This document shows, piece after piece, positions 13,492 through 55,600 of a stretch of DNA of 64,000 nt (the stretch's first letter is position 1; each line of letters starts with the position of its first letter). The position numbers were made by a program, and so were the translations under genes. The stretch is from Halicephalobus mephisto (lineage: Eukaryota; Nematoda; Chromadorea; Rhabditida; Panagrolaimidae): assembly GCA_009193035.1 (NCBI GenBank), contig SWDT01000166.1:1-64000 (forward strand), in the 5' to 3' direction. The notes below the pieces were generated by a model. It was given only the letters and a program-made list of their open reading frames with translations, ran no database searches and was not told where the DNA came from.

Positions 13492-13745
13492 GCTTCAGTA
13501 GTACAATGGTAGTATACATGACTGCAGAGTTACGAAACTCGGGTTCGATTCCCGACCGAAGACTGCAGATCCAGGCCTTGCCAGCCGCAATCTGACTACA
13601 AACGGCTAAGAAACACTCATCAAAGAAAGAAGCGAGATCAGAAGGACCAAAAAGATGATCCTGGTAAGAGAAGAATTCCCTGAAGATGATCAGGAAGGTT
13701 GATATGCGCGAACGCAAGCGAACAATAGAGGAGTCCAAGCTTGAG
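13492..13745 (+). mobile_element. tRNA-headed SINE candidate
   Basis: 13492-13562 is tRNA-like: an A box (TAGTACAATGG), a perfect B box (GGTTCGATTCC), an intact T arm TCGGG/CCCGA and a Cys-like CTGCAGA anticodon loop. The anticodon stem does not pair and the acceptor has two mismatches, so it is not a working tRNA. A tRNA-unrelated, GC-normal body of about 180 bp follows without a Pol III terminator in between, which is SINE architecture. No second copy is in the window and no target duplication was identified. Confidence 0.5.
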
Positions 13746-24100: not shown

Positions 24101-27100
24101 CTCATACAGTAACCAGTTAATATACCGACATAACAGAGATTAAACATAGCAATTATATTAAATAACTATTCAAATATTCGGTCTATATGTAGACAGTATA
24201 TCTGTTGTCTAGCATCTAGAGTATTTCCCTTTTGAGATCTGGCTAGCTCATACAGTAACCAGTTAATATACCGACATAACAGAGATTAAACATACCAATT
24301 ATATTAAATAACTATTCAAATATTCGGTCTGTATGCACAGTATGCTCACTATCTAGAAAGTACACACAAAAAGCGTTACTTTTGCCCCAGTAACAAATGC
24401 AAATCGTTACTATTTCGTTACAATTCCCGTCGTAAATGTCAAATATTCATGAAAAATGTGACGATTGTGTTACATTTTTACTACATTTCGTAATTTTTAC
24501 AGGATCAAAAGTTACGCTTTTTTGTGTAGGATATTTCCCTCCAAAACCTAATTTGCTTACGTAAGTCATTTAATACATCGATATAACAGTAATTATTGGA
24601 ATAATAATGGTTTTAAAAATTAAAAAATAATAAAGATGTAACAAAAGAATGAATTGTTTGTCGTGGTAGGACCGATAATTTTCCATTCGAAGATTCTTTT
24701 GATATTTATCTTTTAGAAGAGACTTATGATTGTGGTCCCGACACGAATAATGTTCGACTCTTCTTTCTATAACATTTGGTAATTTTAGACACTTTTCGTG
24801 ATAAAATTAATTTTGTTTTATTTTATAATTTTTAAAAAGTTTAATTTTGAGAATACATTTCCGGTAGTGGTCCTGATACGAAAAAAACTTGACTTTATTT
24901 TTCAACCATAGATTTGGTTATTAGTGTCTTAGATTTTTCAAAAATTTAATTACCTGTTTTGAAGCCACATTGAAAATGTATAAATTCTTCCTAATTCCCG
25001 CCACGAAAAGGGAATCATTACAGCACAAGGCTACTGTAGAAGTTGTGTGCATCGGACGGATCGGGATGTTCCGGATTTCCACAGGTAGAGTTAGTACAGT
25101 TTTTTTGTAATGAACTCCGAAATTTTGACAAAGAAGAAAACCCTAAAAATTTTAATTTAAAAAAAATTAAAAAATTATAAAATTTTTATTTTTAAAAAAT
25201 CATAAAATTTTACTTTTAAGAAATTATAAAATTTTTATTTAAAAAAATCATAAAATTTTAATTTTTAAAAAATTATAAGATTTTACTTTTAAAAAATCAT
25301 GAAATTTTACTTTTTAAAAAATCATGAAATTTTACTTTTTAAAAAATCATAAAATTTTTATTTTTAAAAAATTCTAAAATTTTTATTTTTAAAAAATTCT
25401 AAAATTTTAAAAACCGACGTCTACAGTAACCCCGATGATCCAACTCATCTCGATTCCGTTTACTCGTTGTTTTCTGTGCCAGACAAATAAAGCATTGACT
25501 TTTTCGTCGATGTTTTCAGCGATGATGTTTGTTGTTTTAAATTTCCTTTCTGCAGCGTCGAATTCAAATTGGACGATGGCGTAATCTCCTTCTGGATCCT
25601 TCTGGTTGTCTGAAATTAATTTTTAATTAGGAATTTTAGAAAATAAGAAAATTCAGTAAAAGTTTTAAAATTTAATAAAAAATTTTTAAATTTTCAAAAA
25701 ATTTGTGAAAAATTCTGGAACCTTCCAGAATCTAATGAAAACTTTAATTTTAGGATTTTATGCAAATTTTTGAACTTTTATGGAGTTTTTAAAATTTAAT
25801 AGAAAATTCAAAAATTTTCGAAAAATTTTGTGAAAAATTCTGGAACCTTCCATAATCTAATGAAAACTTTAATTTTAGGATTTTATGCAAATTTTTGAAC
25901 TTTTATGGAGTTTTTAGAATTTTGTGAAAAATTTAAAAATTTTCAAAAAATTTCAAAATTAAGATCTAAAATCTGGAATCTTCTAAGTTCTGGAAATCCG
26001 TGTTGAGATAATTTCGCAAAATTGTTCATTTGTGATTTTTGAAATAATGATTTACCTGAGTAAGAACTCAATAAACCGTTCATCTGTAGACAGCAGATGC
26101 CGCCCGTGTAGTCGTCGTCCCAGAAAGCCAAGGAAGCACAGTATTCCAAGGACTCGAATGTCTGGCCGTCTTCTCTCCCGGAGAGTTTGACTGACCAATC
26201 GTCTTTTTCTCCTGTCCAAGTTATCGTCCGGACGGATTTTTTGGATTTAAAAAACACGTCAATTAATTGCTAGAATGGACAAAGTGATTAGAATAGTGAC
26301 TGATTTTTAAATTCATCTTGATAGTGACTGGATTTTAAAAATTTAGCTTAATAGTGACTGATTTTTGAATTCATATTGATAGTGAATAAATTTTTAAAAT
26401 TCATTTTGATAGTGACTGATTTTTAAATTCATTTTGATAGTGACTAAATTTTTAAAATTCTGTTTAATAGTGACTGAATTTTAAAATTCAGTTTAATAGT
26501 GACTGGATTTTTGAACTCATATGGATAGTGACTGATTTTTAAAATTCAGTTTAATAGTGACTGGATTTTTGAACTCATATGGATAGTGACTGATTTTTAA
26601 AATTCAGTTTAATAGTGACTAAATTTTTATATTCACTTTAGTAGTGATTAATTTTTTAACTTTATTTTAATGGCGACTGAATCTATATTTAGTTACTTTT
26701 ATATTCATTAAATTTCATACATTTTTAATTATTTATTAAATTCAAAAAAAATCAAAAAGTTTTTAAAAAACCGCGCGCTTTCGTAATACCTTTAAAAATA
26801 AAATTCTCGCGTTGGGACCGCGTCAGCTCCTTTGGTAAGCTTTAAAATTAGACCAAAAGTAATTTTCACAATTATTAAAAAATAAATTTTTAAATATGAT
26901 TTTTAAAATTAAAAAAATTGAAAACACTAGGTCGTCGTGGCCGAGCGGACAAAGGCGTTTGGTTTATGCCCAAATGGAGGTGACTCTCCGCGCGGGTTCG
27001 AATCCCGTCGGCGACACTATGTTTTTCGAATTTCGTCGTAGTTTAATATCGGAGCGATTTTTCCGATTACATATGAGAAGACATGAGATATTACTGCACA

Positions 27101-30100
27101 TATTGGATGAAGTGACTACAATGCACATTCGCTTGTTTTCGTCTGTGGAAAGAACGAACAAGTGAAATACGCTCAAAAGGATCCTCGAAAATCTGTGATT
27201 TTCGTCTTTGAGAAGCGCAAACCAGAGAACGTCGTTCATGCTTGTTCTCAAAAAAGCGAAAATCGCTTATATTCGTTCTTGAGGGAACGAAAATCGCTCA
27301 TTTTCATCTTTAAAAAAGCGAAAATAGCTTATATTCGATTTTAAAAAAGCGAAAATCGCTCATATTTGTCTTTAAAAAATCAAAAACTTCTCATATTCAT
27401 CTTTAAAAAAGCGAAAATCGCTCATTGTCGCTCTAAGACAGGCGAACAGACGCCTTCAGATAAGCGAAATTCGTTTATATTCGTTCTTAGGAAAACGAAA
27501 ATCGCTCATGTTTGTCCTTGAAAAAAGTGAAATCCGTTAATATTCGTTCTAAGCAAAGTAAACCAGCAAAAAGCACTTTCGTTCTAAGAGTGAATAAACG
27601 AAAGTCGCTTGTGAATAAGCGACATTTCTAATGAAAATTCTGTAATTTCGCTTACGTTTTGTTCGTCTTTGTTGTCGGCCTTTTCTCTGTGAAGGAGCTT
27701 TCCTTCAACGTCGTAGAGATAGAATTGGGACTTGGACCAGACAAGAATCTGCTGGCTCGCAGTAAAAACGACTTTTCCGACCTCCATCTGGTTGTCCATC
27801 CCATCTGGTTCGATGCTTCGGTGTTCTCCAGAAATCAATGACATTACAACTATCTAAATTTAACTAGTAATTAATTACGGACAAAGTTGTCGATTTTGAA
27901 GCGATCCAAGTTCGGATTTCGAAATACTTCGAATTTCGAAATATTTTAAGTTTGGAAATTTCGAAATACTTCGAGTTTAGAAATTTCGAAATACTTCGAA
28001 TTTGGAAATTTCGAAATACTTCAAGTTTGGAAATTTCGAAATACTTCAAATTTGGAAATTTCGAAAAACCGACAATTTTAATTATGGATTATTTTCTAGA
28101 AAATCTTACTTGATTGTTGTTGGTGTAAGCGACGGAATATTTATCGTCCTTACTGACGGCCATTCCGAGGAAGATCCCCTCGATGTTCGGATTTATCGCT
28201 CGAGTCCGATCTCCTGTCCTGATGTCCCAGACAATAAGTTGATTAGAAGTACTGGCTAACGTTTTCTGGTCAGATGTAAGTTCCATTCCAAAAACAGCAA
28301 AAGGATGTTCCTAAAAGTTGAGGATTTCAGAAATCCGATGTGAAATTTCGAAATTTTTGATAAACATAATTTTCATAAATTTCAAGATTTTTGTTAAATT
28401 TTTATAAAAGTTGTTATAAAATTTCTTTGATTTTTATCGATTTTTATATAAAATTTCCAAAAATTTAAAAGTTTTTATATAAAATTTTCTAAATTTTGAA
28501 GTTTTTATAAAAGTTGATATAAAATTTCTTTGATTTTTATCGATTTTTATATAAAATTTCTAAAATTTAAAAGTTTTTATATAAAATTTTCTAAATTTTA
28601 AAGTTTTTATAAAAGTTGATAAAATTTCTTTACTTTTTGGAATTTTATATAAATTTTAGTCTTGTTGTGGCTTTTTTTAATATAGAATTTAAAAAATTGA
28701 AGATTTTAGGGGAGATTAAATAATGTAAAACTTACTTCTAAACTAAATCTCAAAGGTCCGCCGGGAGAGTGGAAACAGTGATGGACAGGAATGAAGCAGT
28801 TGAATTGTGCTGCTTCGAGATCGCATCCAGTTAACAACTTCAACAAACAAGGATTATCCGAAACCAGAGGCAACAATCTCCCAATTAGTTCAAAAGCCAA
28901 CATGTACGGAAATCTGCTTAGTAAACTTGCGGATAGCCTCAGGGCATCCATTACAAGTCGCAATTGTCTGACAGCTTCAGAATCCTCGATTTTCGAAAGT
29001 GCTTCTTCGTAATCAGCGATCAAGGCTTGGAGAGGGAAGGAGCAGAGCTGGAAGACGTAGGATTTGGTGATTTTAACACGTGGACAATGTGGGCCATATG
29101 TGGTACACAACCTCTGGACGGTGCACATAACATTTCGTAACAGATTTATTTTGCGATTTTGGATTTTCTTTGTTTTTTGTAACTGGCAAATACCTCTAGA
29201 TTGAACGAAATTGTTGGATCGGGCATCCAGCCTTAATGGGAAGCGCAACCGACGGGGAGTGCTTGGTCCCGAACGGATTGCCTTAGTACCAATAAGGAGT
29301 GCTCGGTCCCGAACGGATTGTCTTAGTATGGACAAGGGAGCGCTTGGTCCCGAACGGATTGTCTTAGTACGGACAAGGGAGCGCTTGGTCCCGAACGGAT
29401 TCTTTTAGCACCGACAAGAGGACATACAGTTCCTCTTGGCGAGAAGTTGAGTTGTTTTGTGTTTATGTCGATTTCGACATAGTGTTTCTTTGTACTGTAC
29501 CTAAGTCATTTATTTAATAAACCTTCTCTATACTATTCCCCTCCTCATTCAGACGTGGGTCACTTGGCGTGACGGATACAACAGAAACATTCACGAATTT
29601 GGGCCAGAGAAAAAAGAAAAAAAAATATATATATATATCACGTTGGGCCCACGGCACACAAGATTCAAAAACATACATTGTCCGTAAGGAGTTAAAAAAG
29701 ATTACCTTGGCTTGGATAAACTCAAAGTTGAAGAGACAGAGGTTGAACAGCTCTTCGATCCTCCTGGAACGAAGGAGGTGGAAGGGGAGTTCATTTAGTT
29801 TTCTGCAGTTAAAACGGATCTGAAAAAATACTGATTTTAGAAACTCACAAAACTACCAGAAAAATAAAATAACGAAATATACACACTAAAATAAATTTTG
29901 AATGGATTTGAGTAGCAGTCTGAGAAAAGAGAATTTTGGTAGATGAGTTTTTAAACATTGTCTATGTATTGGAGAATTTTAGCAGTTATGAAAGATATTT
30001 TATCATCTGAAAGCAAGATTTCGAAAAAAGGTAGCAGCACTGGGGATTCCGAGGACGTCTCCGATCCAAGTACTAACCCAGCCCTATCGTGTTTAACTGG

Positions 30101-33100
30101 CCAGAGCAAACGGGATGGCGTGTCTTCACAATGGTTTGACCGCTACATGCCCTCAGGGTATCTAAACTCCCCTACTTCGGATAGTGACTGCAATGCATAG
30201 AAAATTCATTCATTATTCACTATTCTAGGGAGTCTTGGAACGAATATTATTGGCGCTTAAAATATAAATGCTTTGATAATTGCTAAAAAGTTAGTTTTCA
30301 GAAAAAAGGTAGCAGCACCGAGGATTCCCAGGACGTCTCCGATCCAAGTACTAACCCAGCCCTATCGTGTTTAACTGGCCAGAGCAAACGGGATGGCGTG
30401 TACTCACAATGGTTTGACCGCTACCCACATGCCCTCAGGGTCTCTAAACTCTCCCCCTTCGGATAGCAACTACAAAGAGAAATCACTCTTTTCGTTCACT
30501 CTCCATTCAATGAGTAGAACTAATTTTGGAACAGAAAATACGATTGAATTGATACTATAATGTCCGAAATATTTTCGAACATGTCCTTTAATCGTTTTCA
30601 AATTTTCCTCTTTAATCAGAAATCTCCCTACCTGGTCACTGTCACTGCTTCTGAAAACATTTGGCTGTTTCGGTACTTTCCTGTCAGCCAATCCCTCGTT
30701 CTCAATGACGCCAAATCTCTGTTTCTGCAAATCCGTGTACTGATAAGGCTTCGGAACTCCTCCCCAAATCCCCAAAAAGTAATCCGCTATCGCCGAATGT
30801 GTGTTTTGCAAGTGGTTTAAATTTTTGAAGTATCGTTCTTCTGCGGACGTTCTGAATTGTTCGTGATACCAATTTAAGACGATGACTCCATCGGCGGCTC
30901 TTTCGGATAAATATCCAGGTAAATCCGCTCTTATCCGACTCCACAGAAGAGGAGGAATTCTTCTCACAGGAGGCAAGTGATACTGGTAGATGTCATCTAG
31001 GACTTTGTCGTCCAAAGAAATGAGATCTTCTAATTCTGAATCCGACAATCCAGATCTCGCTGCAGTGATGTAAGACAACGCGTGACTAACGAGTAACTTT
31101 CCGTGATGTCCTTCTGTCCTGTCGAACAAAGCATGGACACTTTGCTGAACTGATTTGAAAAGTACCGTATCCTGGGCTTTTGAGTAGCTTTTCCATCTGG
31201 CTACTGTAGCGTAGACCAACTTCAAAAACAAAGGAAGAGTACAGTAACCCAGGGCTTTGTTGACAATGTCCATTTGTCTGTTGGTCAAAGTCCTACCAAT
31301 AGCTTTGAGCCACTTCCGGATGACTTCGGCTCCAAGTTCCGGACCCAATGAAGGAACCAGGACGTACTGCTTCTGGTCCTCGACTAATTTATGCATGTTG
31401 GCTTCGATAGTGGTGTTAGTGCTGAATGAAACGATCAACTTGACGTTGGGGGGCAGTTGCGGGGGGAACCAGAGGAGTTCCTCGGCCGAGTCGATTTTAG
31501 AAAGTTGGTCGAGAGAATCTAGGATCATTATCTGGAAAAATCAAAAACGTGAAAGTTATTAAAGTCTATCCATTCACCAATGGTCGATCTCTTGTGGCCA
31601 AAGTCGTCATCTTCTTGTAGTGGAGGAAAAGTTTGGAAACTTCTGTAGGACACTGGGTTTTCAGCATAGGGTTGTAGTTATGGGCAATCTAAAACGAAAA
31701 AATCATTCTTGTAAAAATTATAAATGTGTATTTTTGCAAAATTATCTCGACAAGAATTTCGAAAATTTATTAGAAATTTCCGGAATTTCTAATTTTAAAT
31801 AATAATTATGATTTCCCAAAATTCTAAAAGGTTTCAGAAACTTCCAAGAAATTCGAGGATCTTGTGCTGGATTCTGGAAGATTCTAGAAGATTTCAGAAA
31901 AATCTAAAACTCAAAAATCTCATGAAAGTTTCTATTAGATTCTATGATATTCTGTAAATCCCCAAAGTTTCTATGAGATTTTTGAAGATTTTAAAAATCT
32001 TCAGAAATTTTGATAGAATTTTTGAAAATTCTAAAAATCTTCAGAAACTTCCATGAGATTCTTGAAAATTTCAAATCCTTCTAGATTCTAGAAATTTCGA
32101 TGGAATTTTTGAAGATTTTAGAACTTTCAAAGAAATATAAGATATTCTTCTTTCCAAAATTAGTTGATTCTAAACTTTTTCGTCTTCCTGATCTATGATT
32201 TCGAAACAACTGCTGTTTTGTTTTTTATTGAATATCATTCTAGTTTTAATCTTCACTAACCTGTTCACAGAGGCTGATCAACAACGGGGAGATACTAGAG
32301 CTATCAGGACTCGTCCCTAAGAACCTCAAGATCAAAACAGGTTCAATAGCGTCGGTCATCCATTTCCTGCATTCTGTAGCGATTTTCGCCATCACGGAAG
32401 TTTTTCCACAACCGTTTTCTCCGCAGAAAATAAGAGGAAGACAATTGTCTGACTGTAAGTACTCTTTTGCAATCAGAAGCTCCTGTGTTCTTCCGAAGAA
32501 CATTTCTGCACCGATTTTCCCGTTATAAAGATGCTGCAGAATTTCGCTGAAGGATTCATCTCGGTATTTGTCGTATTTCCTCATGGCATTGTCCACCTAG
32601 AAGTTATTAAAATTAGATTCAGAAATAATGTCAGAGGGGAAGATACCCTACATACAAAAAAGTAGTTTTTAGTACAGTAACAACTATAACCCATCACTAT
32701 TAAGTTATAATTTTTGTAACAAAAATTAAGTTTTATAAAATATGTGACGATTGTGTTGCATTTCGCAGTTGTTATGGGTCAAAAGTTGTGCTTTTTTGTG
32801 TATTGGAGCTGTTTTTGGATAGTGATTTCGACAGCTGCAATAAATTTTGGATAGTGACTAGAAAGCCCTGATTCGAGTCGGAAATAGACACTATCCAAAA
32901 TCTCTACACAAAAAACATAACTTTTTACCTAGTAACAAATGAAAATCGTCACTATTAAACTGTAATTTTCGTCACAAAAATTAAGTTTTATAAAATATGT
33001 AACGATTGCGTTACATTTTAAAATTATTACAAAACTTAAAAGTTATGCTTTTTTGTGCAGGGGAACATACCATGTTTGTGATGCTAGAGTAGAAATCCTT

Positions 33101-36100
33101 GCAAAACTCTTTCAAGTAGCCTGCATGGGCATGGATGTCCATCCCTTCTCTGCCAGACCATTCTACCGTAGATCTGCGAATATTTTTGGGACATAATTTT
33201 GCAGGAACTCTTTCATCTCGAAGATTGGCCAGTAATTTCTGTGCTTCGATATTTACTTGTTTAAGAACAATATCGGTGAATTTAGAAGCAGTGTTAGTCT
33301 GGTTGATGTTGATGTTTTGGATATGTCTGACGTAACAGAGACAATGATCGTTAGGATTCTCTGCTCGGAGGATTCCGTGAATCACCTCACGTTCGGTCAC
33401 TGAAAACAATGATAAAAATTAATAATTTTCAATAACGGAATTGTTGGAAGACTTGCACAAAATAAATCTGCATAATGCAAAAAATCCCAAAAATATAGCT
33501 GCATAGTGATTCGAAAAGTTGGGGAATGATTTTTTTAGTCACTATCCCGGCAATTTGTAGAGCTGACTTTAGAGAATAGGAAAAACGGAGATCTTAGAGG
33601 ACAAGTGAGTTTGAGAGTGGTTGTTTTCGTTACTGTAAATGATTCAAGTTTAAAAAGGGTAGCAGCACTGAGGATTCCCAGGACGTCTCCGATCCAAGTA
33701 CTAACCCAGCCCTATAGTGTTTAACTGGCCAGGTCGAACGGGATGGCGTGTCTTCACAATGGTTTGACCGCTACCCACATGCCCTCAGGGTATCTAAACT
33801 CCCCTACTTTGAATAGTGACTAGAAAAAGAGAAATCACTCTTCTTAATCATTGTGATAACACTTAAAAGAACTGCTTTTTAAATTTACTAAATCAGTCCT
33901 AATAAAATATTTGGATAGTGACTAAAAAAGAGAAATCAATTTTCATACCCATTTTCTTGGAAACTTACTGAATGATTTTTGAAAATCAATTTAAATAGAA
34001 TTTTAAAATCGTCTACTATTACCGAAAAATCAGTGTTTTCAGTCACTATGTTCTATTGGGACGATTTTCGACTAACGAGAAAATATTTCGAGTGACATTG
34101 GGCAGTACTTGAAACCAAATTCGAAAACTCACCGGACATGAAATAATTATGCATTTGATCGTAGGTAAAATATCCCTTGTCGTAACACAATCTGGCTCCT
34201 TTCCTGAGCAATTGTTGTATTTTTCCCTCCACCGCCCACCAGGCCCTGGCGTCTTGTTCCTGGAGCTTCGGGATCCTCTTGTTGTTGAAATTGACCAAGA
34301 TACTACTAATTGGTTGGAGGATAAATTGACTAGGAACTGCGTTGAGGTCTTCTATGTACCAAGTGTCCAGGATCTGGACGTCATCTTGCTGCTCTTTCAG
34401 CGTTCTTTTCAGAATTTCCAGCTCACTAGATAGTATCTCACTTGGAAGCGGTCTATAGCCGTATTTTTGACAAAGAAAAACCACAAAATTCGGTCCCATA
34501 GAGAGCTTCTGACAGTTGTGGATTTCGTTGATGCAGAGATTCGTCGTCATGTGGTCATCCGTGGCTTCGTCACGAACACCCCATCTCATGTCGACCACTT
34601 GGAAGTCCAACCCGTGGATTTCACGACAGTACTTCTTAAGATTTGGATATACGTCTTCCATCAGGGCATTTCTCTCGAGAGTCGTGTCTGTGAAGGTGGA
34701 CGAAGTGAACACACGGACGAGTTTCGACATCGGCTGAGGGATATCATCGAACTGACCGCTGAAGACCCGATGGAAAGTCTCGAGAACTTCTAGATCGACC
34801 TAGAAGGATTTAAAAATCATTAATGTTGGATCAGGCACCCCATCCTTAATAAGAAACGCAATCGACAGGGAGTGTTTGGTCCCGAATGGATTGTCTTAGT
34901 ACGGACAAAGGAGCGCTTGGTCCCGAACGGATTCTCTTAGCATGAACAAAAGAATGGTTGGTCCCGAACGGATTCTCTTAACATGAACAAAGAAGCGCTT
35001 GGTCCCGAACGGATTCTCTTAGCATGAACAAAGGACCACAGTTCCTCTTGGCGCGAAGTTGATATACGGTACTTTCTCTAAAATAAACCCCGGGACTTAT
35101 TTTTTTTCAATCATCTTCCAGAAGGGGCTTATTTTAGAGAAAATACGGCATGTTTCTTTGTATCGAATCTAACACTGTGCTTTTGTATTGTGCCTAAGGC
35201 ATCTATTACAGTAGACTCTCGACAAGTGGAACTTGAAGGGACCGGGAAAATGTTCCACTTATGGTGATTTTTCAGTTATCGAATGTTCAACTTAGGGAAC
35301 ATTGAAGATCAAATGGGATTTCCGAGGTCCATTTAACGTGGTTTTCTACTTATCAAACTTCCATTTATCTGACTTCCATTTTTCGGATTTCTATTTTTCG
35401 GACTTCCATTTTTCGGACTTCTATTTTTCGGACTTTTACTGTATATAAATCCTTTTCTTCGAGAATCGACTTCATCATCTAGACCTGGGTCACTCGGTGT
35501 GACAAATACAACAATTAATAAAAAATCAACTGTCTTGGAACGAAATATTTTCATTACAAAAAATACTAAACTACAGTACTACTGAGAAAATTTCAAAAAT
35601 AATTTTTCGTTCGAAATTTATTTTGAAAAATATTTTTAATGAGAATTTATTAAATTTTTTTATTAATCAAAAACCGAAAATTTTTAATAAATTAAAGTTT
35701 TTTTTTTAAATTCACAATTTTCATTGAAATTATTACTTTTATTAAATTTGAAAAACTCGAAATAATAATTATTTTAAAATTTATTAAAAATTCAAACGAA
35801 ATTTATTTTCAAAATTTAAAAATATTTTATTAAAAATATTTATGTTGGATTGTGCACAATTTATTTGAATGGAAAGTTGTATAACTTTGGTCCCGAAGAG
35901 AACTACCCTGAAGATCAATGAAAGTCGTACGGTAGCCTTTTGGCGGCAATTTTAAAATTGCGCAATATTTTTGATAAAGTTGTGATTTATCTCGTGTCCT
36001 TGGTCCCCATAAAGTTATTTTTATATATTTTTGTCTACACACGGATCCGGATTCCCCAACGACGATTTAATACAGTGAAACCTCGATATAAGCAACCCGA

Positions 36101-45237: not shown

Positions 45238-45355
45238 GGTAACGGTCAAACCATTGTGAGCACACGCCATCCCGTTCGATCTGGCCAGTTAAACACGATA
45301 GGGCTGGGTTAGTACTTGGATCGGAGACGTCCTGGGAATCCCCAGTGCTGCTACC
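45238..45355 (+). rRNA. 5S rRNA-like gene, copy 5
   Basis: Core and T5 terminator intact. One change in helix I (GGTAACGG). The usual leader is replaced from 45205 onward by an unrelated sequence (GAACTCGAGTTGAACC...). The 3' flank (45356-45560) is the reverse complement of the flank of copy 8. Confidence 0.7.
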
Positions 45356-46052
45356 TTTTTAAACTTGAATCATTTATAGTAACGAAAACAACTACTCTCA
45401 AACTCACTTGTCCTCTAAGATCTCCAACTGTTTTTCCTATTCTCTAAAATCAGCTCTACAAATTGTCGGGATAGTGACTAAAAAAATCATTCCCCAACTT
45501 TTTGAATCACTATCCGAAAATACCATTAGACTTATTTTTGAACTAAGCCGGAACTTTAACAATTGCTTGTGTAATGATTTAAGAAGTCAATTTTTTGTGA
45601 AAATACAAACATTGTTGTGTTCATTGATGGAACTAGCAAACGTCCATGAAGATGATTAATTTCCTCAAATTTTTATTTTTGAAATTATTTTCACGAATAC
45701 CGCTTTTCCTAAGGTCCCCATTTCTTGAATTTAACTTTTTTGTCATTCGTTTCATCTTTTGTCATTTGTCTTTCTCCCAAAACCCGTTGATTGTTGATCA
45801 ACAGGGAAAGCTGTTGCGACTTTTGATTGACTCAATTTAAATCCTGGACGCATTGGACAATTGGCGACAGCAATTCCATCGAGTTTCTTACCGCATCAAA
45901 TTCAAATACTTTTGTCGTGGATCTCTTTTATGCTTCTTGCCATTTGCTCCGTTTATCCAGTGCAAAAACATTAAAGAACACGAGTTTTTGCAGAATTGAC
46001 GGCGATAGGAGGATTACAAATAACATGAAAGAGTTTTGATCAATATCTAAAG

Positions 46053-46170
46053 GGTAGCAGCACTGGGGATTCCGAGGGCGTCTCGGATCCAAGTAATAAC
46101 CCAGCCCTATCGTGTTTAACTGGCCAGATCGAACGGGATGGCGTGTCTTCACAATGGTTTGACCGCTACC
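46053..46170 (-). rRNA. 5S rRNA-like gene, copy 6
   Basis: Full length with paired helix I. One change lies in the usually invariant GGATCGGAGACG block (GGATCCGAGACG), and the 3' T run is short (plus strand CTAAAGGG). Possibly inactive. Confidence 0.6.
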
Positions 46171-47720: not shown

Positions 47721-48070
47721 TTTTTAAAATGAGTTTACGAGTTCATAATAGAGTGCAAGAAAAAAAAAGCGAAATAACTTTCGGACTAAGGAGTAGATGA
47801 CAGGATGATTTAGTTGGTGCAAAACAGAACTTTGGGTATCAAACATTAGTCACTATCCACAGCTGTCATTAGTTTGTTTCTGATTCTGCAAAAAATCCCA
47901 AAAATATAGCTGCATAGTGATTTGAAAAGTTAGGAATGATTTTTTTAGTCATTATCCCGGTAATTTGTAGAGCTGACTTTAGAGAATAGGAAAAACAGTT
48001 TGAGATCTTAGAGGACAAGTGAGTTTGAGAGTGGTTGTTTTCGTTACTGTAAATGATTCAAGTTTAAAAA

Positions 48071-48188
48071 GGTAGCAGCACCGGGGATTCCCAGGACGTC
48101 TCCGATCCAAGTACTAACCCAGCCCTATCGTGTTTAACTGGCCAGAGCGAACGGGATGGCGTGTGCTCACAATGGTTTGACCGCTACC
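48071..48188 (-). rRNA. 5S rRNA-like gene, copy 7
   Basis: Full length, intact helix I and T5 terminator. The 3' flank (47888-48070) matches copy 4. Confidence 0.7.
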
Positions 48189-49450: not shown

Positions 49451-50600
49451 AGTTTTTATATTTTGTAATTTTGAAAATTAATAATCAGCTTTTCGTTAAA
49501 AAATAAATAATATTTTAAAATCTGAATTTTCAAAGTTTTTATTTATTTTTGAGTGAATTTTTTTATTTTGTCCATTTTCACATTTTATTGATCAAAGTTC
49601 TTTTTTGAAAACAAATGACACCATGAAAACTTCCATCATCACCTGTTATCCACGTTTTATCAGGTTTTCGTGTCGAGACAATTAAAAAAAATTTTTTTTT
49701 ACAAATTTAATTTTTTAAATTTTTTCCATAGTTCTGAAAAGCAAATAAAAAAAAATAATTTTTTTCAATTTGATATTTAATTTTTTTAAATTTTTACATT
49801 ACTTCAAAAAAAATAAAAATTATTTAAAAATCAAAAAATTATTTTTTTCTATTTTTTTCTAAAATTTTTTAATTTGATATTTAATTTTTTTAAATTTTTA
49901 CATTATTTCAAAAAAAAATAAAAATTATTTAAAAATTAAAAAAATAATTTTTTTTCAATTTTGTTTAAAAAATTTTTAATTTGATATTTAATTTTTTTTA
50001 AATTTTTACATTACTTCAAAAAAATTAATAAAAATTATTTAAAAATCGAAAAAATTATCAATTTAATTTTTTTGATTTTTAGTTTTTGAAATTTGGTATT
50101 TGACTTTCTTATTTTTATATTTCTTCAAAGAAAGCAAATTAGGAAATCCCTAACGACATCGACAAGTCATCCCGTCTTCATTGCATCTGTTGCTCAGACA
50201 TCTGCAAAAAGTTTTTTGTCCACCGTTTTGCGGCAATTTATAAAAATAATTCCCGAAGAGTGCTGACATTTCCATTGGACGACGGTTAGCCGTTCTTTCT
50301 CGATTTTGGGCTTTTGGCAACAGGAAGCAGATCTAGATTCCCAGTGACAGCAGTTTAGCGAAAGCGAATAATTTAATCTTCATATAAGCAATTGTTAAAG
50401 TTCTGGTTTAGTCCAAAAATAAGTCTAATGGTATTTTTGGATAGTGATTCGAAAAGTTGGGGAATGATTTTTTTAGTCACTATTCCGGTAATTTGTAGAG
50501 CTGACTTTAGAGAATAGGAAAAACAGTTGGAGATCTTAGAGGACAAGCAAGTTTGAGAGTGGTTGTTTTCGTTACTGTAAATGATTCAAGTTTAAAAAGG
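49450..50600. other. AT-rich spacer with an island at 50150-50350
   Basis: 49680-50100 is low-complexity A/T with a roughly 125-bp loose repeat (TTTGATATTTAATTTTTT). The 50150-50350 island is GC-normal, unique and non-coding by eye. Confidence 0.35.
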
Positions 50601-50716
50601 TAGCAGCACTGAGGATTCCCAGGACGTCTCCGATCCAAGTACTAACCCAGCCCTATCGTGTTTAACTGGCCAGGTCGGATGGGATGGCGTGTGCTCACAA
50701 TGGTTTGACCGCTACC
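50599..50716 (-). rRNA. 5S rRNA-like gene, copy 8
   Basis: Full length. Near the box A region it has TCGGATGGGATGG on the plus strand, a few substitutions from consensus. T5 terminator present; long 3' flank shared with copies 4, 5 and 7. Confidence 0.65.
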
Positions 50717-51520: not shown

Positions 51521-52184
51521 TTTAGTCACTATTTGATTAATTTTTACATTTATTTTTCACCAAAAATCTTCCAAATTAGCAATTTTTTCAAATGTGTGAA
51601 AATATTTACTTTTTTATTACTGTAACTTTATCGTTTTTCTTTCATCGCTAACTTTTACCAGAAACCGAAATAATTTCTTCCAGCAAATCCCGGACAAATG
51701 GCAATTTCGATATTTGTCACCGTCTTTCATCCAGGACTCCAATATGCGTGCAAAATTGAGCACATGTTTTCCTCTTGTCATTTTCTTGGTGTAACTGAGT
51801 TTGTCCTTTAGATCCTAAAATACGACAGGAGATGACTTTTAATGATTGCCGCTGGCGATCGAGAAGTGTTGCGTTTTGCCAATTTTAAATAAAAATTGAG
51901 GCGGATCTTTCACGAAACTTTCGTTTTTCTTAATTTTTTAAATTAAGGTATTTATGTTTTGATCACGGACTAGTTTCAAATTTCTGATTGTTTATGAAAA
52001 TGTCCTGTAATCGTCCTTCGATTGTTTAGTTTTATTTTTTATCAACAAACTGTCATTTGAAAACGTGATCAAATGTCAAATGGGAACTGTTTTGATTGAG
52101 GAAATTAAAGTTATGATTTCCCATTGGATGTAGTTGTGTATTATGTTTGACCTGAGATAGTGGGATTTAAATGAAATTTAAAAA

Positions 52185-52301
52185 GGTAGCAGCACTAGGG
52201 ATTCCCAGGACGTCTCCGATCCAAGTACTAACCCAGCCCTATGGTGTTTAGCTGATCAGATCAAATGGGATGACATATCTTCACAATAGTTTGACCGCTA
52301 C
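52185..52301 (-). pseudogene. Decayed 5S rRNA-like copy 9
   Basis: Recognisable over its length but with many changes in the promoter half (plus strand GATCAGATCAAATGGGATGACATATC), and the same 4-nt leader junction deletion as copies 2 and 10. Unlikely to be transcribed by Pol III. Confidence 0.7.
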
Positions 52302-52669
52302 ATGCCCTCAGGGTCTCTAAACTCTCCCCCTTTGGATAGTGTCCAGTACTGTTCATTCATTTTTTCATTTATTTTATCTTCCGATTCACGTTGAACCTCT
52401 GGCAGTATTCCAGCGATCTTTTACGACATGCTGTATTTTTTTTCAAACAAAAACAATAGGACATTTTTCTCGGGAAAATTTTTTTCTTGTCAAGTCCCGA
52501 TTCCGTCTTGTTTTGAGCCAAAACCGATCTTCCCAGCTGATCACGGGTCCGCTGGAATGACAGTCACTTGTACAAGACGTCGACTGTCACGGTATTTCGA
52601 AATTTGGTTTATTTTCGTGGAATTTTGAATTTTAAAATTACAGTAGTATTTCAGATTGATGAAAACAGA

Positions 52670-55600
52670 ATGTCTGCAGACCTGATTCAGATGGCTTCGT
52701 CGTCCTTCAGTCATCAGTTTCAGAATCAAGAAGAACCTAATTTCGATTTGAATTCCAAAAACGCGAATCCCGCTGGTCTTCTGGGTGACCAGAATCAGAA
52801 TTCGAAGAAAAACGAAAATGAAGTAAAAAACGACAAAGTTCCTGATGGAAGAAAATTGGACGAAATTTTGCTTCCAGCTCTGGTTGGACATCAGGTTGGT
52901 TTTAGATTTCGGAAATTCAAGATGGGGACTGTCGTTGATCTTTATCCAAAAAGCAGCTGGAATGTGGAAAGTTCAGCTACTTCCTAAATATTTTATCGGA
53001 GCCGTTTTCCGATATTCAAAAACAACTCTAGAAGTTGTAAAGATAGTGACTAGAGATGACATTTTCTCTATAAGTACGAACCCTATCCAAGTATTCCATT
53101 GGGGCTGATTTTCCATCTCAGAAATCAGTTATATTAATTGTCTGGATAGTGACTGGAAGAAATGATTTCTGTGCAATAGTGAACACTATCCAAGTATTCC
53201 ATTGGGGCTGATTTTTGACATTCAAGAACCGTTCCACAAATTGTCTGGATAGTGACTAGGAAGAACGATTTTGAAACAATGATAGACACTATCCAAATAT
53301 TCCATTGGGGGCTGTTTTTCCATCTCAGAAATCAGTTATATTAATTGTCTGGATAGTGATTAAGAATGGCAATTTCTGAGCAATTATGGATACTATTCAA
53401 CTCTCCTATCGAAGCTGATTTTATGTTTCTCAAAAATCGGCTCTATTAATTGCTTGAATAATGACTGAAAATGGCAATTTTTTTAGCTATTATAGACACT
53501 ATCCAACTTTTGGAATTATTTTGCTAACATTCAAAACTAGTTCTTCTTGTTCCCACCATAATGATTCAAAAGAACATTTTTTCATTTCTTAGTCACTATT
53601 CAAATATTCTATTAGGACTGATTTAGTAAATTTAAAAAGCAGATCTTTTAAGTGCTATCACAAGGTTAAGAAGATTGCTTTCTCTTTGTAGTTACTATCC
53701 AAAGTAGGCGAGTTTAGATACCCTGAGGGCATGTAGCGGTCAAACCATTGTGAAGACACGCCATCCCGTTTGCTCTGGCCAGTTAAACACGATAGGGCTG
53801 GGTTAGTACTTGGATCGGAGACGTCCTCGGAATCCCCGGTGCTGCTACCCTTTTTGCCGACTTTTTCTTAATAATAATCGAAAGGACCTGCCTCTAACTC
53901 ATTTACCATTCAAAGTTTTTTTGGAACCATTTTTCAGCTTCCATAAAACAGGTCTATAAATTACCGGGATAGTGACTGAAGAAGTGTTTTTCGGTTCTTC
54001 CCAGTCAAGATGTCACTATTCTGTTGAAATTATTTTTTGTAAAGTTTTCTAAAATACAGAAAGTGAGTTAATGCCAACTATTTTTTCCTAAAAATAACCT
54101 AATTAAATCAATATCCAAAAAAAAGCTCCAATAAATGAGATGGATAGTGTTTATTTTCAATTCAAATTTTAGTTATCTAATCACTATTCAAAAAACAACT
54201 TTTATAAATGAGATGGATAGTATTTATTTTCAATTCAAATTTTAGTTATCTAATCACTATCCAAAAAACAGCTCCAATAAATGAGATGGATAGTGTTTAT
54301 TTTTAATTATGATGTAAACTATCTAGTCACTATCCAAGAAACAGCTCCAATAAACGAGATGGATAGTGTCCATTACCAATTTGAATGTAAACTGTTTAAA
54401 TCACTATCTAGAATTCTAATCAAATCAGTCACTATCCAAAAAACAGCTCTAGTGGAAAATGTGGATAGTGACTAAATAATCAATGCTTAAAAATTGTTAT
54501 TTTTATGAATGACGAAACTTATTTTAATTTTCTGTATCTAATAATTTCACTTTTCCAGGCTCTGCCAATCCACCTCAAAGTCCTCTACGATTCCATCTTA
54601 CCCACATGTCCCTCCATCCTCGTCCAGCAATCAATTTCCAAAAGTGACTGGTCGATGTCAGATTTCCATCGAGGTTACATTCTTCAGGTCAGTTTTTCCC
54701 AAATGTCTTTTATGCAAATCATTTCCTGTCCAAAAAAGCCATAACTGATCACATTTATTTTTTATTTTTCTGACAATTATTTTTTACAAAAATTTTTATT
54801 TTTTTTATAAATTACAAAATTTATTTTTAACAAATTTTGAATTTTGAATTTTTTAGAATATATAGGATTTGAGGAGTGTACTGTAGTTTTTGGAATTTTC
54901 TGGTATTTGAGAATTAAAATTTTTAATTACGAAGATATTAACTCGATGTTGATGGGGTACTGTAGGATTAGTTATGATCTTTTTAGTGTATGTTAGACTT
55001 TCGACATATCACTATCAACTCCAGAGGAGCGGATAGAGGATTATGTACTCTATATACCGTAATTTAAAAGTTTCTAGATCCATCTAGGAAAAGTATATTT
55101 CTAAACACTTAATTTCGAAATTCTGTAAAAATACAATTTTAGTCGATTTTAAATTCTTAAATTTCATAATTTTTATAAAATATAATTAATTTCGAAATTC
55201 TGTAAAATTATGAAATAATTATGCAATTTTAGTCGATTTTAAATTTTTAAATTTTTCTTAAATTTCATAATTTTTATAAAATATGATCAATTTCGAAATA
55301 ATGCAAAAATTAACTTTCATTTTAGATCCTAGAAAATTCTGAAAATCCTCTTCAAAACAGTTTTGTAATAATTTTTTTGTTTTTATAATAATTATTCAAA
55401 AATACCAAAAATCAAAAAAAGCGATCAAAAGGTCAATATGCCGAAACCGAAGTTTTTAAAAAAACAGATTTTTCTGTTTTCTGAGCTGTCCCGAATTGCG
55501 CAAGAGTAATGACCCCGACAATATGGAACTTTTTCTCGAGCACTGTCCAAGTTTACAAGCAGTCAACATCGAAATCACATTTAAATTAAATTTTTGGAAA

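Follow-up and report, generated by a model that had tools for sequence, protein, structure and literature searches.

Nematode nev-tRNAs carry a 15-20-nt variable arm, and their main types are Gly(CCC) and Ile(UAU) (excerpts of PMC4300185). The same excerpts describe the C. elegans nev-tRNAs as weakly expressed, provided with CCA, exported, and charged solely with Leu in vitro, nev-tRNA-Ile included. Misreading of GGG (Gly-to-Leu) went undetected in the C. elegans proteome, AUA-to-Leu was left unexamined because the masses of Leu and Ile are equal, and roles in stress were proposed by the authors (PMC4300185, as excerpted). Excerpts of PMC4033280 name the species then known to have them: Pristionchus pacificus, five species of Caenorhabditis and two of Meloidogyne. 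In excerpts of PMC4810241, five such tRNAs of C. brenneri group with those of class I, their mode of origin is called unexplained, and tRNAs of this sort are described as apparently not functional in vivo. Among the records listed by our searches of the open-licence literature, none concerned a panagrolaimid nev-tRNA. Another parallel is the CAG tRNA of Candida albicans, with which CUG is read as Leu or Ser: there too, the pairing of anticodon and amino acid can break the standard code. The Candida ambiguity reaches the proteome at about 5% (excerpts of PMC4300185), whereas in the genome described here AUA looks like isoleucine at the genome level.

The window (the whole stretch of DNA analysed, 64,000 nucleotides) is the start of a 164.6-kb contig, and the genome searched comprised 59.9 Mb in 331 contigs. 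The window gene resembles the C. elegans nev-tRNA-Ile(UAU) (Hamashima et al. 2012, 2015) in being a class II tRNA with a UAU anticodon, a long variable arm and a complete cloverleaf, and in coexisting with class I tRNA-Ile(UAU); this likeness is one of described features. Unlike that of the C. elegans gene, the host is nearest to Panagrolaimus/Panagrellus, judged by one gene. The parts of the locus are as follows.

26931-27016, + strand: nev-tRNA-Ile(UAU) gene, class II, discriminator A73 (ARAGORN, RF00005, 24/24 stem pairs)
26938-26948, + strand: A box TGGCCGAGCGG, internal Pol III promoter (segmentation)
26958-26974, + strand: anticodon arm TTTGG-TTTATGC-CCAAA, with the anticodon TAT at 26965-26967 (ARAGORN, segmentation)
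26976-26989, + strand: variable arm, four pairs GGAG/CTCC with loop GTGACT (stem pairs, segmentation)
26995-27005, + strand: B box GGTTCGAATCC, internal Pol III promoter (segmentation)
27016, + strand: discriminator A73 (alignment of 11 tRNA sequences)
27022-27026, + strand: T5 run, Pol III terminator, five bases past the discriminator (segmentation)

The sequence-only reading of this DNA had proposed a complete class II tRNA with a four-pair variable arm, and this was borne out. RF00005 matched 26931-27016(+) along the whole model (positions 1-71 of 71), scoring 54.8 bits against a gathering score of 29 for the family (E 4.8e-9). Manual segmentation gave the acceptor stem GTCGTCG/CGGCGAC, the D stem GCC/GGC, the T arm GCGGG-TTCGAAT-CCCGT and the discriminator A; all 24 pairs of the cloverleaf are standard, two of them being G-U, and none is broken. 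The variable region spans 17 nt (26975-26991), with a four-pair stem, and thus lies within the 15-20 nt that define nev-tRNAs. The UAU anticodon in the seven-base loop TTTATGC, also claimed in that reading, is read directly in the sequence, and ARAGORN called a tRNA-Ile with a tat anticodon at 26931-27017(+); the loop has U33 and a purine (G37) after the anticodon. Both promoter boxes and the terminator are intact, as had been stated, with the T5 run beyond the gene interval given at the time. The A box 11-mer TGGCCGAGCGG is identical in native Leu(AAG) genes. The minimum free energy fold from ViennaRNA differs from the cloverleaf, since the D arm is extended across the anticodon arm, and is unexceptional (z = -1.57; 15 of 200 shuffles fold as well or better). 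Bare tRNA sequences commonly give such non-cloverleaf folds. The covariance-model match was weighed above the thermodynamic fold. Minisatellite arrays of 29 bp and 31 bp flank the gene, at 26400-26710 and 27217-27500.

Several other identities were considered and rejected. A refolding of the anticodon loop to UAA or UAG would have made this an ordinary tRNA-Leu; the anticodon stem, with its five Watson-Crick pairs, allows no such shift, ARAGORN and Rfam agree on the tRNA, and the anticodon stays UAU. An ordinary tRNA-Leu is ruled out by UAU standing in place of NAA/NAG, an ordinary tRNA-Ile by a 17-nt variable region against the short loop of class I, and a tRNA pseudogene by the absence of broken stems and the undamaged promoter boxes.

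The host was placed by means of proteins encoded in the window. Mitochondrial ABCB10, joined from five window exons, had as its best named matches Panagrolaimus sp. JU765 (87%), P. davidi (85%) and Panagrellus redivivus (84%), and was 92% identical to a metagenome protein. We read this one gene as placing the genome with a panagrolaimid or close kin. The top protein match of an NWD1-like exon was at 97% identity; among named nematodes the nearest were C. brenneri, at 73% across 85% of the query, and Parascaris, at 83% across 67%. The nematode genome and every sequence feature that could be checked fit the assignment to nev-tRNA-Ile(UAU). Thus the conclusion that the window gene is a nev-tRNA in a nematode with panagrolaimid affinity holds on the sequence evidence, nev-tRNAs themselves being already known.

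The genome holds a single match to the window gene, by a DNA search that is blind to distant relatives. Class II tRNA patterns returned 17 genes, 11 and a further six with introns: Leu(AAG) (four), Leu(UAG) (two), Leu(CAG) (one), Leu(CAA) (three), Leu(UAA) (two), Ser(UGA), Ser(AGA), the window UAU gene and two genes with the anticodon CCC. Thus 3 of the 17 have neither a Leu nor a Ser anticodon. The anticodons of the six intron-bearing genes were assigned by eye; in this manual reading, an intron of roughly 29-36 bases follows position 37 in the Leu(CAA) and Leu(UAA) genes and in one Ser(AGA) gene (L042-L047). On the same six genes, ARAGORN gave three Ala and one Leu(AAG), four misnamed according to the manual reading. 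Two wider patterns were also run: the first gave 14 matches, 10 of them class II genes already found, against none in the backward control, and the second gave eight matches, one already found, against 15 in the backward control, so that the rest are at chance level. Among the class II pattern matches no further nev-tRNAs with other anticodons were recognised by eye, a search that diverged or long-intron genes could escape. The same patterns found no Ser isoacceptors besides UGA and AGA, which shows that this census is incomplete. A genome search with RF00005 scored 63 of 3768 candidates. Elsewhere in the window, 13492-13563(+) is a weak tRNA-like match (33.5 bits), for which ARAGORN gave a four-base anticodon, gcag; it is probably a pseudogene, which by eye we take to be Gly-like. 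Ten 5S rRNA genes are dispersed on both window strands without a single tandem array, and no match to SL1 was found near them within the window.

821-939, 45238-45356, 53732-53850, + strand: 5S rRNA
30029-30147, 30307-30425, 33657-33775, 46052-46170, - strand: 5S rRNA
48070-48188, 50598-50716, 52184-52302, - strand: 5S rRNA, the remaining copies

Which synthetase would recognise the window tRNA was examined by aligning it with tRNAs of the same genome. A73 occurs in all six aligned Leu sequences and in the window gene, and G73 in both aligned Ser sequences; the alignment also shows a D loop of leucine length in the window gene. According to excerpts of PMC9976931, the eukaryotic Leu determinants are A73, C3-G70, A4-U69, G5-C68, a large variable region and U8:A14, those for Ser are G73 and a large variable region, and m1G37, plus A35 in vitro, favours leucylation in yeast. 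The window gene carries A73, C3-G70, the large variable region and U8:A14. It is without A4-U69 and G5-C68, having G-C at pair 4, as do all 11 aligned sequences, and U-G at pair 5. G37 and A35 are present at the level of sequence, and G37 is common to the aligned native Leu sequences. Leucine charging of the window tRNA is therefore likely, given a discriminator and a D-loop length of leucine type. The gene is thus like an ordinary cytosolic tRNA-Leu in its long variable arm, A73, A box, D-loop length and G37, and unlike one in its UAU anticodon, which replaces NAG/NAA, and in a best identity of 67%. The case for its Leu parentage draws less on overall identity than on A73 and D-loop length, the serine-type CCC genes (65-66%) being about as close as Leu(AAG) (66%).

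We consider it probable that the gene encodes a nev-tRNA-Ile(UAU) which is charged with Leu, weakly expressed and outcompeted at AUA, causing at most rare, mostly harmless replacement of Ile by Leu. RNA polymerase III would make the tRNA, weakly if the analogy with C. elegans applies. Leucyl-tRNA synthetase would then charge it, as suggested by A73, the leucine-length D loop, the long variable arm, U8:A14, C3-G70, A35 and G37. The resulting Leu-tRNA could in theory decode AUA, perhaps also AUG through wobble, but tRNA-Ile(UAU) and the inosine-type tRNA-Ile(AAU) would outcompete it; because of this competition, Leu-for-Ile swaps should be rare at most, and mostly harmless. Retention of the gene would imply some use, perhaps conditional or tissue-specific. 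Four other readings overlap with this one, and the likelihoods that we give them are not meant to add up to a whole.

The first is that the gene is a silent relic, a formerly working tRNA that is now barely or not transcribed and has no consequence. The single copy found, set between two minisatellite arrays, the weak expression of C. elegans nev-tRNAs (PMC4300185, excerpts) and the apparent lack of function in vivo (PMC4810241, likewise) all speak for it. The window gene is 67.4% identical (58/86) to Leu(UAG) and Leu(CAG), 66.3% to Leu(AAG), 65-66% to the two CCC genes, 59-62% to two Ser tRNAs, 57-58% to Leu(CAA/UAA), 57% to Arg(UCU) and 51-54% to class I Ile. A fresh point mutant of any of the local tRNA-Leu sequences found is excluded, the closest being 67% identical. 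Compared to Leu(CAG), 13 pairs are unchanged, two are changed on one side, nine on both sides, and none is broken. When 20 stem substitutions were placed at random from Leu(CAG), all pairs were kept in 0 of 200000 trials, with a mean of 11.8 of the 24 remaining paired; starting from Leu(UAG) or Leu(AAG), the count was likewise 0 of 200000 each. The simulation is a yardstick, and assumes a living Leu tRNA as the ancestor. Of the 262 cells in the alignment of 11 sequences, 98.5% hold standard pairs, and the failures lie outside the window gene. At 67% identity, yet with nine pairs changed on both sides and none broken, the gene is, to judge from its pairing, an old and maintained lineage rather than a fresh mutant. 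This record, some 20 stem substitutions without a broken pair, together with intact promoter boxes and terminator, argues against a silent relic, which we regard as unlikely.

The second reading is that the gene is a functional mistranslator or conditional tRNA, placing Leu at some AUA codons under stress or in some tissue. It overlaps the Leu-charged, outcompeted nev-tRNA favoured here, and differs from it in degree; the structural maintenance of a diverged lineage and the stress roles proposed in PMC4300185 (excerpts) would both suit it. That AUA has no ordinary decoder can be rejected: at least two class I tRNA-Ile(UAU) genes exist (C312:20971-21044 and C318:316652-316724), and at least seven tRNA-Ile(AAU) genes were read. 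The window tRNA is thus a competitor, not the sole reader of AUA. Both of these class I tRNA-Ile(UAU) genes (L067:4857-4930 and L064:152-227) were called without an intron, and have G, not A, after the anticodon, as does the window gene.

The meaning of AUA was assessed from conserved columns. AUA accounts for seven of 54 Ile codons in ABCB10 and occurs twice in the NWD1-like exon. On average, these nine columns held Ile at 0.42, Val at 0.26 and Leu at 0.15, compared to Ile 0.44 and Leu 0.15 for AUU (44 columns) and Ile 0.38 and Leu 0.13 for AUC (22 columns); columns of the six Leu codons held Leu at 0.45-0.82. Single AUA columns vary widely: two are nearly all Ile (111/120 and 113/119), but Leu outnumbers Ile at ABCB10 residues 248 (58 Leu versus 32 Ile of 118) and 189 (39 Leu, three Ile and 70 Val of 119), another column is near-equal (31 Leu and 36 Ile of 105), and one more is mostly Cys/Ala. 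In a PRP8 exon of 1270 residues AUA is one of 72 Ile codons, and at this codon each of the five PDB chains shown has Ile, four of the chains being nearly identical to one another. As for GGG, Gly stands at 3/3 PRP8 sites in the PDB chains shown; in ABCB10 and the NWD1-like exon three alignable columns are mostly Gly, the fourth having no homologue.

Reassignment of AUA to Leu was accordingly rejected at the genome level, since an ordinary tRNA-Ile(UAU) exists and AUA columns resemble those of AUU and AUC on average, if in small numbers. The sequence-only reading had also described nev-tRNAs, including Ile(UAU), as charged with leucine in vitro, which agrees with excerpts of PMC4300185, and had suggested that AUA could be misread as Leu. 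This last idea is corrected to AUA as isoleucine at the genome level: by conservation AUA looks like isoleucine, while misreading at the per-cent level is beyond the sight of conserved columns. As the masses of Leu and Ile do not differ, looking for Leu at AUA in the proteome would call for a reporter or for fragmentation of side chains. The resemblance of AUA to AUU and AUC, its rarity in the PRP8 exon and the lack of detected mistranslation by the sister nev-tRNA-Gly in C. elegans (PMC4300185, as excerpted) make a functional mistranslator slightly less likely still than a relic.

The gene might instead have a non-translational role, such as supplying tRNA fragments or serving as a Pol III landmark. 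This has no direct support and would account for retention without codon ambiguity; it seems improbable, as structure alone needs no open anticodon loop with U33, a purine at 37 and A73, all of which are present. Weakest is the idea that IleRS charges the gene product, an isoleucine tRNA whose variable arm has become long: UAU fits the eukaryotic Ile determinants N34, A35 and U36 (PMC9976931, excerpts), but the gene is 67% identical to class II Leu against 51-54% to class I Ile, and in vitro Leu alone was loaded onto the nev-tRNA-Ile of C. elegans (PMC4300185, excerpts), so that we hold this to be very improbable. Since A35 and U36 sit in the anticodon, the sequence leaves room for partial charging by IleRS.

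To return to the favoured reading of a Leu-charged nev-tRNA, its origin may be approached through the other class II genes with unexpected anticodons. As in C. elegans, which has nev-tRNA-Gly(CCC), this genome contains two class II CCC tRNAs.

L032:1494-1575 (G000:C72:44224-44305): class II CCC tRNA, nev-tRNA-Gly-like
L039:1490-1571 (G000:C293:401730-401811), minus strand: class II CCC tRNA, nev-tRNA-Gly-like

The two are 89% identical to each other. Both anticodon stems contain the same T-T mismatch, and acceptor pair 5 differs between the copies by a compensated change. A DNA search with one of them returned only both CCC genes, a weak test in that Leu and Ser tRNAs were not listed either. 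Both have G73 and a serine-length D loop, in contrast with the C. elegans nev-tRNA-Gly(CCC), charged with Leu in vitro according to the excerpted report. Because of these two features, the CCC tRNAs are predicted to carry Ser, not Leu as reported in C. elegans.

The anticodon arm of the window gene is identical to that of tRNA-Arg(UCU) of the same genome at 15 of 17 positions, including both stem strands, and the next best arm reaches 10. One base separates UCU from UAU, and base 37 also differs. The comparison set consisted of 31 distinct arms of 27 isoacceptors from part of the genome, excluding that of the window gene; among its 407 cross-isotype pairs, the top identity was 14/17, found once, and identical stems occurred in three. 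A 15/17 match is thus unusual but not unheard of. Transfer of the arm followed by one anticodon change is possible on this comparison, as is convergence. It is tempting to speculate that the window gene is a mosaic of a leucine-type body and an Arg(UCU) arm and that, with the serine-type CCC genes, it forms a set of latent decoders, of AUA as Leu and GGG as Ser; we offer this tentatively, as a minority view. If true, it would provide a mechanism of origin for nev-tRNAs, and nev-tRNAs would not all be leucine tRNAs.

Nev-tRNAs are a standing puzzle: they are intact and on paper break the code, yet the one tested showed no mistranslation. An intact copy near Panagrolaimus/Panagrellus would extend their range beyond Caenorhabditis, Pristionchus and Meloidogyne, the genera listed in the excerpts of PMC4033280, and offers a one-gene case for asking why nev-tRNA genes persist. 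Testable ideas on how nev-tRNAs may have originated come from the two serine-type CCC genes and from the anticodon arm that resembles the one of tRNA-Arg(UCU).
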